Source: a virus
Strand: one strand, 5' to 3'
Length of the DNA stretch: 51,276 bases
IMG/VR virus record: IMGVR_UViG_3300030107_000818
Coordinates: 1 to 51,276 of that record
The translations under genes and the position numbers were made by a program. Every line of letters begins with the position of its first letter. Within the stretch, counting starts at the first letter, position 1. Positions 15,504 through 20,375 of the stretch are shown here, piece by piece. Under the pieces are notes generated by a model. That model ran no database searches. It was not told where the DNA came from and was given only the letters and a program-made list of their open reading frames with translations.

Positions 15504-16010
15504 GAAGTATTTTAATTTTGTTCTACATGGAACAATCAACTTGCATTAGCAAATAAATATTATTGTGTCAAGAAATATGACAAAAGTATTTATTTAGTTT
15601 TTTAATACTAGGGTATGACCATTTTAAAAAAACTTCTTAGAAGCTAAATTAAAGCTAGGCATAAGTAGTATTTATATATTTAAGTTTTAAACATAACTTA
15701 AACTAATAACACTTAGGGTAGAAAACTTAGCCCTAAAAAAAATTAATTCTTTAGGGCTAGACTGTAAGGGCTATATCGAATTCGGTAAAATTAAGTTGCC
15801 CTTACCAAGACTATAAACCTATATAGTCTATAGAGATTATATAGTATTCTTTTTAGTTTCTCAATAGTTATCTTTATATTCTTTACTGTTCTTTACTGTT
15901 TAGCTATATAGTCTATAAAGTAATAAGTTAAATTAATTGTTAAAAAAATTTGACTTTTGTTTTTAATTTATGTTTTAATGTTTATATTAATTATTTTAAG
16001 GAAAATAAAA
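15504..16010. other. Noncoding region with palindromes and direct repeats
   Basis: No gene is seen. An 18-bp palindrome TTGTTCTACATGGAACAA lies at 15518-15535. A long hairpin has arms TAGCCCTAAA and TTTAGGGCTA (about 15722-15755). GTAAGGGC and GCCCTTAC form a second pair just after it. CTATATAGTCTATA is directly repeated at 15819-15832 and 15904-15917, and CTTTACTGTT is tandemly repeated near 15881-15900. The stretch separates two early operons and could be an operator, an origin or a structured leader. Confidence 0.5.
15950..15979 (+). promoter_or_regulatory. Promoter of the second early cluster
   Basis: TTGACT (15950-15955), 18 nt, TTTAAT (15974-15979), with an extended -10 TG at 15971-15972. 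It lies about 30 nt before the ribosome site of the first gene in the cluster. Confidence 0.5.
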
Positions 16011-16184
16011 ATGAGTATAAAAGAAGTAGAAAAATTAACTGAATACGAGTTATTAAAAAGACTTGATGACAAGTTTTCTGATGTGGACTTTAGTGTGCGA
16101 GATTGTGCGACTAAAGGTGTAGTAGCTATAGTTTATTTTTATGAAGATAAATTTGGGGGAGAGAATTATGACAGTGACAGTTAA
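16011..16184 (+). CDS. Early hypothetical protein (57 aa)
   Basis: The frame is open from 15957, but ATG 16011 has TTAAGGAAAATAAAA just upstream and avoids a hydrophobic stretch that lies in the promoter. The protein begins MSIKEVEKLTEYELLKRL. Its end overlaps the next gene by 17 nt. Function is unknown. Confidence 0.6.
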   Translation: MSIKEVEKLTEYELLKRLDDKFSDVDFSVRDCATKGVVAIVYFYEDKFGGENYDSDS

Positions 16185-16818: not shown

Positions 16819-17045
16819 CAATTAAAGAAATTAAAATATCACTTGCAGATAAAATTTACGAAGATATTAAAAATGGTTTTGAAACAGGAGATACTTCTTG
16901 TTTTTATGAAACTTTAGTGGCTTTAGAAAACACCAAAAACAAAAAGGTTTTACAGTTTATGGTCGAATATATTATTCCTGAAAAAGATTGGCATAAATAC
17001 ATAGATGTAAGAACAAGCAAAAAAGGGGGGAATGATGAAAGGTAA
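16815..17045 (+). CDS. Early hypothetical protein (76 aa)
   Basis: ATG 16815 overlaps the previous stop (ATGA) after GGGGGAG. Mostly helical, with FETGDTSCFYETLVALEN and FMVEYIIPEKDW. Function is unknown. Its 3' end again carries the G-run and AATGATG junction. Confidence 0.55.
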   Translation: MTIKEIKISLADKIYEDIKNGFETGDTSCFYETLVALENTKNKKVLQFMVEYIIPEKDWHKYIDVRTSKKGGNDER

Positions 17046-17163
17046 GCTAACTAAACTTGATGAGTGGGTTTATAACAACAATATTAAATACCACCTATAC
17101 ACTAAGATACCTTTGTTGGTCTTAGTTGTTTTTTATGTAGTCTTTTTTATGGGAAGTGAATGA
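17032..17163 (+). CDS. Small single-pass membrane protein (43 aa)
   Basis: Starts at ATGATG 17032/17035 after GGGGGG. A polar N-terminus (KLTKLDEWVYNNN) is followed by one hydrophobic helix near the C-terminus (IPLLVLVVFYVVFFMG), giving an N-in or tail-anchored topology. Its coding end is the junction motif. Function is unknown. Confidence 0.5.
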   Translation: MMKGKLTKLDEWVYNNNIKYHLYTKIPLLVLVVFYVVFFMGSE

Positions 17164-17333
17164 TGACTGATAAAGATATATTAACTTTAATAAATAGTCT
17201 TTCTAGTTTGGAAGATTCAAAGAAAGTAGAAGTAGCAATTTTACTATTATCTACTATTATGATTCCACCACACGCTGAACAGACAGCAGGTTTTATGGTA
17301 GGTTTAAATGAGGAAGTGAATGATGATGACTGA
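17163..17333 (+). CDS. Early hypothetical protein (56 aa)
   Basis: ATG 17163 (or 17160, one codon earlier) at the GAATGATG junction. Begins MTDKDILTLINSLSSLED, with a helical KVEVAILLLSTIM stretch. It ends at TGA 17331-17333 and overlaps the next gene's start. Function is unknown. Confidence 0.5.
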   Translation: MTDKDILTLINSLSSLEDSKKVEVAILLLSTIMIPPHAEQTAGFMVGLNEEVNDDD

Positions 17334-17463
17334 CATATTTAACTTTGTTATGGGTGTTGCTATCCTCATAATCATGGCTTACTTTGTGTGGGTTATAACA
17401 GTAATTAATCATGGTAGAAAAAATAAGTCAGAAAAATTTGACAAGAGCAACAAAAAACTTTAA
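17320..17463 (+). CDS. Small membrane protein (47 aa)
   Basis: Three ATG codons in a row (17320, 17323, 17326). One strong membrane helix (FVMGVAILIIMAYFVWVITV) is followed by a basic tail (HGRKNKSEKF). It is the second small membrane peptide in the cluster. Function is unknown. Confidence 0.5.
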   Translation: MMMTDIFNFVMGVAILIIMAYFVWVITVINHGRKNKSEKFDKSNKKL

Positions 17464-17472
17464 GGTAGAATA

Positions 17473-17733
17473 ATGGAAGATTATATTAATGAGCAAATAC
17501 AAGAACATATAGCTTATGTGTTAGCAGGGCTAGATGTTTTTAGTGAACGAGAAGATTTGTTGATAGACCTATTCAACCATGTTGAAGCAGAACTATTGAC
17601 TGAGCCTGTGCCAGTTACAGATGAAAGGATTATTAAATCTGCGATTGGATTTATGGAGAACTTGTGTGCTGATGCTATTTCAGAAGCACAGTTAGAACAA
17701 ATGGCTAATGAAGCCCAAAGAAAACTAAACTAA
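17473..17733 (+). CDS. Early hypothetical protein (86 aa)
   Basis: ATG follows TTTAAGGTAGAATA. An acidic all-helical protein: EDYINEQIQEHIAYVLAGLD, then a C-terminal helical stretch. No motif is recognised. Last gene before the structured noncoding stretch at 17.74-17.95 kb. Confidence 0.6.
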   Translation: MEDYINEQIQEHIAYVLAGLDVFSEREDLLIDLFNHVEAELLTEPVPVTDERIIKSAIGFMENLCADAISEAQLEQMANEAQRKLN

Positions 17734-17743
17734 TTATGAGTTT

Positions 17744-17949
17744 GTGGCTAGGACAATCTAAGGAAACATTACTTAAATTTTTTATTTATTCCTTTATGAG
17801 TGTCTTAGCCACGATTTAACATGAGTGCGAGGGTTGATAGGGAAATTAGCAGTTAATGAACTATCTACTTGGTGCTGACAAGATTCACGAGGTCAGTTAA
17901 ATGAGACTTGTTAAACACTCAAGCCAAGTATTAACCCAACTGCCCACTC
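17744..17949 (+). ncRNA. Candidate structured RNA or leader element
   Basis: There is no convincing gene in 240 bases; a 27-codon frame from 17736 lacks a ribosome site. GTGGCTAGGACA (17744-17755) pairs with TGTCTTAGCCAC (17801-17812), one G-U, with inner AAGGAA/TTCCTT. Next, GAGTG (17823-17827)/CACTC (17945-17949) encloses GGGTTGAT (17831-17838)/ATTAACCC (17930-17937). That encloses a hairpin around AGTT-AATG-AACT and a stem ACTTGG (17867-17872)/CCAAGT (17924-17929), with CTGAC/GTCAG inside. This resembles a multi-branch fold ending 15 nt before a strong ribosome site. No known riboswitch family is recognised. Confidence 0.45.
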
Positions 17950-17973
17950 TTGTAATTATTTTAAGGAGATAAG

Positions 17974-18168
17974 ATGACTAAATTTACTATAACAGCTACC
18001 CAACCGGCAAGGTACAGCATTACCCTTGAAGCTAATACAGGTGCAGAAGCAATAGAGATTGCTAAAGAAACTAGCACTAGTGAATGGAAGTTTGAGGGCT
18101 ATGAAGATTGGGAACAGTATCAGGTTAGCTCTGTGCAATATCGTTTGGAGAATCTTAAACAGGAGTAA
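17974..18168 (+). CDS. Early hypothetical protein (64 aa)
   Basis: ATG after TTTTAAGGAGATAAG. Begins MTKFTITATQPARYSITLEA, with an alpha/beta pattern (AEAIEIAKETSTSEWKFEGY). Similar short proteins with a beta strand, then a helix of the EAxxxA type, are frequent in phages; the role is unknown. It lies directly downstream of the candidate structured RNA. Confidence 0.6.
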   Translation: MTKFTITATQPARYSITLEANTGAEAIEIAKETSTSEWKFEGYEDWEQYQVSSVQYRLENLKQE

Positions 18169-18170
18169 CT

Positions 18171-18410
18171 ATGAAACCATTTATTGATTTATGTAATGAA
18201 GTCGTAACAGAAATAGTTGATAAGACTAAAAAAGAAATGACAAAAACTAAGACTCCCTCGTCTAACATTGGACGCAATTTGGATTATGGCGAGGGTGGTC
18301 TTTCCTTTTTGGAAGAAAACTTTATAACCGAAGAAGAATTAGCAAATTGTTGTGAGTTTTGTGGCGAAGCTCTTGAAGATTGCACAGGCTATAAGTGTTG
18401 GATAAGATGA
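18171..18410 (+). CDS. Small Cys-containing protein, possible zinc knuckle (79 aa)
   Basis: The C-terminus has CCEFCGEALEDCTGYKC: two CxxC-type spacings that could bind one zinc ion. The N-terminal half is helical and charged. It begins 2 nt after the previous stop and overlaps the next start (ATGA). Function is unknown; metal binding is inferred from Cys spacing alone. Confidence 0.55.
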   Translation: MKPFIDLCNEVVTEIVDKTKKEMTKTKTPSSNIGRNLDYGEGGLSFLEENFITEEELANCCEFCGEALEDCTGYKCWIR

Positions 18411-18586
18411 AAAGGATAGACATTTTCTTTTGTAAAAAGTTTGACGAGTATTGTTACGACTGTTTAATATACAATGAAGTAGAAACACAAAAAAGTTTTT
18501 ATGACTACATAGAGGCTAATAAAAGTTTATTAGTTAGGCTTTATGTTGAAGAGAGGAGAAGAGAGAGGAGAGCGAGACTAAACTAA
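18407..18586 (+). CDS. Early hypothetical protein (59 aa)
   Basis: ATG 18407 overlaps the previous stop; a GTG at 18395 is an alternative. Begins MKRIDIFFCKKFDEYCYDC and ends in a very basic helix (EERRRERRARLN). Cys-rich N-terminus; it may act with the preceding Cys protein. Function is unknown. Confidence 0.5.
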   Translation: MKRIDIFFCKKFDEYCYDCLIYNEVETQKSFYDYIEANKSLLVRLYVEERRRERRARLN

Positions 18587-18600
18587 TGAAAGGAGAAAAT

Positions 18601-19317
18601 ATGAGAAATATATTAATATTTAGTTTAATAACTATTGTTATTGTAACTCTTAGTTACTTTGGTTTTAAAAGAGTAACTGATGATTTACAAAATTCGTTAG
18701 CAGAACTACAGGATTTAGAAGTTTCTGTAGTAAATATGACAGAGCAAGTTAATAATTTGCAAAGCTCTGTAGATGTAGTGGTAGAAGAAGTTGAGAATCT
18801 TAATAAGTCTAAAGCATGGACTACCAATAAATTAAGAAACTTAGAAATCTTTGCTGAAGTAATGGACACAGAAGCTAAGAACTTACGAGCAGACTTAGCT
18901 GACTTACATCTTTCAGTAGAAGCCCTAGCTAGTAAAACTGAATCAGAGTTTGAAGTTTTATCTTCAAGAATAGACGCAGAAATAGTTTCTGAAAATGAGG
19001 CTCTAGCAGACCAAGAAATTGAGACCCCTTATGAGGTATCAAATGAAGTGGATAAAGTCGTTACCGAGCCTGTGGCTTGTCCTCAACCGGTAAAAAATAG
19101 GAGTTATTCTTACTTCATACAGAATGTTAGTTTGAAAAAGTCAGTTGCCTTTAGAGTAATCTATGACTTAAAAGATGGAGAAGTTTATAATGTTGAATTT
19201 GAATCTAATCCACCAACTAATTTAAGAAGACCAACCATTAGGTATCTGAACAGTTTATATTTTGCTGACGCAACTGCTCAAAATTGTTCCATGCCTTTCA
19301 AAATAAATGTAAACTAA
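18601..19317 (+). CDS. Membrane-anchored coiled-coil protein with a TonB-C-like end (238 aa)
   Basis: ATG 18601 has AAAGGAGAAAAT upstream; an earlier ATG (18586) would place that site inside the gene. Residues about 4-22 form a membrane helix (ILIFSLITIVIVTLSYFGF). A long coiled coil follows (about 25-135), then an acidic linker. The last about 70 residues read VAFRVIYDLKDGEVYNVEF, then a Leu/Tyr-rich helix and a Cys. The strand-DG-x-V-x-NV-strand-helix order resembles the TonB C-terminal domain. The architecture would span the periplasm from the inner membrane, like TonB or a spanin. Function is inferred. Confidence 0.6.
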   Translation: MRNILIFSLITIVIVTLSYFGFKRVTDDLQNSLAELQDLEVSVVNMTEQVNNLQSSVDVVVEEVENLNKSKAWTTNKLRNLEIFAEVMDTEAKNLRADLADLHLSVEALASKTESEFEVLSSRIDAEIVSENEALADQEIETPYEVSNEVDKVVTEPVACPQPVKNRSYSYFIQNVSLKKSVAFRVIYDLKDGEVYNVEFESNPPTNLRRPTIRYLNSLYFADATAQNCSMPFKINVN

Positions 19318-20336: not shown

Positions 20337-20364
20337 GGGGTGTCTTCGGATACCCTATTTTTTT
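20337..20364 (+). terminator. Hairpin terminator or attenuator before the primase gene
   Basis: GGGTGTC-TTCG-GATACCC, a UUCG-capped 7-bp stem with one G-U, followed by seven T within TATTTTTTTG. It lies inside the operon 12 nt before the primase ATG, so partial readthrough would set the SSB/primase ratio. A 13-codon frame (20287-20328) precedes it without a clear ribosome site. Confidence 0.75.
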
Positions 20365-20375
20365 GAGGGTCAAAG

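Follow-up and report, generated by a model that had tools for sequence, protein, structure and literature searches.

The interval at positions 17744–17949 of the window (the whole 51,276-nt stretch of DNA analysed here, an IMG/VR virus record) consists of three separately conserved RNA modules on the + strand, and is not translated: a long imperfect hairpin (module I) and, 3′ of it, an outer scaffold (module D) with another module (module E) nested in its insertion slot (Table 1). Close relatives swap or lose these modules as whole units. We read the arrangement as an exchangeable, probably trans-acting phage noncoding RNA cassette that would be excised from the early operon transcript, and put the probability of this reading at about one half.

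The window phage is an uncultured HTVC103P-like marine phage. Its portal gene is 77–78% identical to those of Pelagibacter phages HTVC103P, 104P and 115P and its two-arm genome layout is common to all of them, which makes SAR11 the probable host. The + strand arm encodes a Gp2.5-like ssDNA-binding protein, a primase/helicase, a DNA polymerase, a Cas4-like exonuclease and a ribonucleotide reductase. For both genes flanking the interval a family search returned nothing above family cut-offs. The ribosome site that had been remarked past the structure is present, with AAGGAG 14 nt and the ATG 25 nt beyond the last stem. Promoter-like sites near the interval are no commoner than in shuffles, and no terminator-like site was found on the element. 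Elsewhere in the window, an ordinary intrinsic terminator (20338–20366; GGGGTGTC TTCG GATACCCT plus a T run) lies just before the primase/helicase gene, its hairpin being conserved at the same place in contigs L009, L014, L012 and L007. A noncoding stretch at 15700–15830, within a block (15723–16172) about 95% identical in L001, may be another RNA element; it contains hairpins around TAGGGCTA and GTAAGGGC/GCCCTTAC.

Table 1 Features of the interval and its flanks (positions in the window; paired segments separated by a slash).
Feature	Position	Strand	Remarks
Upstream gene	17473–17733	+	86 aa; family: none found; protein homologues in L001, L002; DNA matches in L028, L009, L014
27-codon ATG frame over module I	17736–17819	+	not a conserved gene
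Module I, long imperfect hairpin	17744–17812	+	
Module I outer stem	17744–17755/17801–17812	+	12 bp, one G-U; first stem of the preliminary description
Module I inner stem AAGGAA/TTCCTT	17760–17765/17789–17794	+	
Module D, outer scaffold	17823–17949	+	stem-junction fold, pseudoknot, insertion slot
Module D P1 GAGTG/CACTC	17823–17827/17945–17949	+	as in the preliminary description
Module D P2 GGGTT/AACCC	17831–17835/17933–17937	+	preliminary description: GGGTT(GAT)/(ATT)AACCC, 17831–17838/17930–17937
Module D P3 GATAG/CTATC	17836–17840/17861–17865	+	
Module D pseudoknot GCAGTT/AACTGC	17849–17854/17938–17943	+	
Module D insertion slot	between 17865 and 17931	+	
Module E, inner module in the D slot	17867–17929	+	unpaired core invariant or nearly so
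Module E P1 ACTTGG/CCAAGT	17867–17872/17924–17929	+	as in the preliminary description
Module E P2 GCTGAC/GTCAGT	17874–17879/17892–17897	+	preliminary description: CTGAC/GTCAG, 17875–17879/17892–17896
Ribosome site AAGGAG	17963–17968	+	
Downstream gene	17974–18168	+	64 aa; family: none found; homologues in L001, L002, L003

All stems named in the preliminary description exist when checked against the sequence. The 206-nt interval folds at −56.8 kcal/mol, compared with −41.1 ± 4.0 in shuffles (z −3.95), and none of 200 shuffles was as stable. The first hairpin supplies most of the excess (z −5.81); taken by itself, the multibranch part is weak (z −1.77), and for this second part the predicted structure is established by sequence comparison rather than by thermodynamics. 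What had been described as one multi-branch arrangement keeps its stems but is actually two RNA modules, one within the other, and the pseudoknot of module D, invisible to an ordinary fold, had been overlooked.

A module family was defined by a conserved core together with compensatory stem changes, and D, E and I show both. Covariation scores for E, I, D and D plus a permuted copy exceed slid controls and, with the exception of the pair-type count for I, all or almost all of 500 shuffles. Compensatory changes, the lack of which in homologues was to count against a structured noncoding RNA, are thus present in all three modules and back that proposal. The 12-bp stem of module I is 95.8% paired over eight homologues (L028, L009, L014, L052, L089, L103 and others), with both sides changed in 6 of 12 pairs, and its wobbles read G-U on the + strand in every case, never A-C, which points to a + strand RNA rather than a DNA palindrome. 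The 27-codon frame, conservation of which had been named as the other possible objection, was rejected as a gene: it is kept only among the closest relatives, has in-frame stops in the more distant homologues L028, L009, L089 and L103, and lacks an ATG in L014 and L052. Module I resembles T7-type RNase III sites in one respect, as an imperfect hairpin between two + strand genes, and it covaries.

Exchange is seen most directly in L001, L002 and L003, the flanks of which are about 95–98% identical to those in the window. L002 lacks the second structure, and the next gene comes straight after the hairpin; in L001 this structure is swapped for an unrelated folded sequence (modules B and A), a piece of which corresponds to the central part of the L028 element; and L003 carries yet another folded RNA at the same site. 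In sensitive blastn searches the ends of the second structure (17817–17867 and 17929–17951) match L028, L010 and L009, whereas its middle (17870–17926) matches L080 at 95%, which identifies it as an outer D containing an inner E.

Module E was found by a pattern scan of IMG/VR in 22 contigs, in varied surroundings. Its core is nearly invariant and its closing stem varies (ACTTGG/CCAAGT, GTGTGG/CCACAC, TTTAG/CTAAA and others). Over 13 distinct rows 95.5% of cells are paired and both sides have changed in 7 of 12 pairs (0 of 500 shuffles), P2 being partly fixed by the search pattern except in L112 and L131, which were found by profile and are free of that limit. In L112 P2 reads AGATAC/GTATCT, and in the distant E of L131 (P1 ATCGG/CCGAT; P2 AGCAAT/ATTGCT) the stems are almost wholly replaced yet paired; this last copy was found by the model at an E-value of 1.6e-6 in 1.1 Mb (rough, as for all E-values from home-made models), on a contig retrieved for another module. 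A third helix, UGAG/CUCA, was considered and is not claimed, support for it in L087, L093 and L112 being inconsistent. In a different phage lineage, represented by L080 (1881–1970) and L090, module E immediately precedes the primase/helicase gene.

A scan with a 22-nt loop identified module D in 19 contigs. In an alignment of 14 distinct loci with slot contents removed, 97.6% of cells are paired over the 14 distinct sequences, with two-sided changes in 8 pairs (38 cells); covariation is found in P1, P2 and P3, the pseudoknot being invariant among those 14. In L140 (638–745) D is circularly permuted, its two halves having changed places; the permuted form is closed at the slot, and the former P1 encloses module A. 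Here the pseudoknot reads ACAGTT/AACTGT, a compensatory change from G-C to A-U, P2 and P3 are likewise changed on both sides, and 96 of 96 cells are paired in D/L140 rows registered by hand, with a bias toward structure (slid controls drop to 20–44%). The slot is empty, with CAAAG or similar, in L112, L118 and L124, and holds A in L028, L009, L110, L113, L114 and L115, O in L116 and L119, and E in the window. Near 440–300 of L119 (− strand), a tRNA-like sequence adjoins a module D.

Further modules of like kind (A, B, F, G, H, J, M, N and O) are found nearby, recognised by eye and by pattern, with the covariation analysis covering D, E and I. Module A (AAAGCCTAGATTNAATTCGGGG) is present in 28 contigs, with outer stems that differ yet pair by inspection, and in L087 and L104 modules E and M and a B-like module lie in series within a noncoding island of ~380–570 nt. 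Small pseudoknot-like motifs J, G, H and F form arrays (L028, 5340–5530; L009, 540–780; L003, 37–146), and the loop partner of J appears to covary (GATAC/GTATC vs GTTGTT/AACAAC). The mosaic distribution, nesting, and empty and filled sites would suit selfish or neutral RNA-encoding mobile modules without phage function, spread from phage to phage by recombination with hairpin stems as landing sites. We regard this as improbable, as such modules are not multi-copy within a genome here, stems that differ between contexts yet stay paired reflect long-term selection on structure, and an unsystematic look beside the cassette revealed no nuclease or transposase.

Each module is present as a single copy per record (E, 6/6; D, 8/8; A, 16/16; approximate, many records being fragments). 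The proteins encoded downstream fall into 10 unrelated clusters for E (15 proteins), 11 for D (16) and 11 for A (31), and neither these clusters nor a family search gave a common downstream gene. Unrelated downstream genes and single copies argue against a gene-specific riboswitch, as had been suggested for the interval, and several modules occur in arrays; single copies and gene indifference also argue against two other readings, a general stabiliser of mRNA deployed repeatedly and a proliferating selfish repeat. Assignment as a riboswitch by functionally coherent downstream genes was rejected for E and D, with 10–11 unrelated clusters each. Conserved cores with free stems, a pseudoknot and circular permutation do occur in hammerhead and twister ribozymes (PMC10085705), but riboswitch aptamers or self-cleaving ribozymes seem improbable, given no gene association and no Rfam match, and unlike modules adjacent in one phage would require several unlike ribozymes.

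The main rival to a trans-acting RNA is a role in cis, possible in our view if doubtful, in which the modules would lend stability to the downstream message at its 5′ end (e.g. by stalling an exoribonuclease) or insulate neighbouring genes. Instances of D, E and A are in sense with the surrounding ORFs in 35 of 37 cases, and the modules, always upstream of small genes, often lie 16–60 nt before the start codon; this location just upstream of ribosome sites fits a cis role too. The apical loop of D pairs just 3′ of its stem, as in ring-forming pseudoknots, and an interchangeable function would explain module swapping. However, a general stabiliser should recur at several genes of one phage, while each module occurs once per record, and strictly conserved unpaired cores and nesting exceed the needs of a barrier.

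Rfam 15 covariance models matched neither the interval nor the modules at the gathering threshold, so the preliminary description was correct in recognising no known family, and a relaxed scan of 17000–18700 gave only chance-level matches to miRNAs and similar. This absence of Rfam covariance-model matches extends to the conserved catalytic cores of hammerhead and twister. No tRNA or tmRNA was found in the interval, and a type III antitoxin (ToxI) was rejected, there being one copy per record in place of tandem repeats beside ToxN, with unmatched flanking genes. A glutamine riboswitch (RF01739, 53 bits) is present in a related marine phage contig (L052, 48–106, − strand). Searching a cultured phage collection by blastn with the window region and two related cassettes gave nothing, and a third related cassette gave just weak short matches to unrelated phages. 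Models of E and D did not match the examined portions of HTVC103P, 104P and 115P, exact-pattern scans for the E and A cores gave 0 matches in 84,980 bacterial species genomes, and searches of open-licence literature turned up no account of such modules.

In the reading that we prefer, the cassette, hairpin I followed by D with E plugged into its slot, would be transcribed within the early + strand operon, and hairpin I would let the host release it from the mRNA, its position and shape suggesting processing by RNase III. The folded D/E RNA would then act in trans, as gene indifference and single copy number suggest; most probably its invariant single-stranded core would bind a factor of the host or of a competitor. 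A trans role would account for the presence/absence polymorphism and swapping of the modules, their single copies and their indifference to the gene alongside. More tentatively, uncultured marine phages may share a pool of at least a dozen small RNA domains that fold independently and act in trans against hosts or rival elements. These would recombine as units, fit into one another's slots, withstand circular permutation and be swapped at hypervariable early-operon sites, a combinatorial system comparable, in RNA, to variable anti-defence gene loci. By Rfam 15 each module is a new structured-RNA family, and nesting, unit exchange and circular permutation with compensatory pseudoknot change amount to protein-like domain shuffling in natural RNA. 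This makes RNA domain recombination testable, and with it the question of why abundant marine phages keep swapping domains.

Natural circular permutations are found in hammerhead and twister ribozymes, and in HRIMA motifs (PMC10085705). As in D, a conserved core is combined with free stems and the order of halves is permuted between natural examples, but the sequence cores of the modules differ from those of either ribozyme and have no Rfam match. The early genes of T7 are separated by RNase III hairpins. Module I is similar in being a long, imperfectly paired hairpin, in having an internal loop and in lying between early genes, but it covaries and stands beside exchangeable RNA modules, and its cleavage is putative. 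ToxI RNAs, the antitoxins of type III toxin-antitoxin systems, and their phage-borne mimics are short pseudoknot RNAs acting in trans. They resemble the cassette as short phage-carried pseudoknot RNAs, but ToxI repeats one unit in tandem, while the units here are single copy with unlike neighbours. GOLLD and ROOL occur in phages or prophages. Together with OLE they are large ornate RNAs (Rfam; PMC12286853) and, like the cassette, large structured noncoding RNAs of several domains; each has one fixed architecture, whereas the units of the cassette are short (about 45–130 nt), interchangeable and nested.
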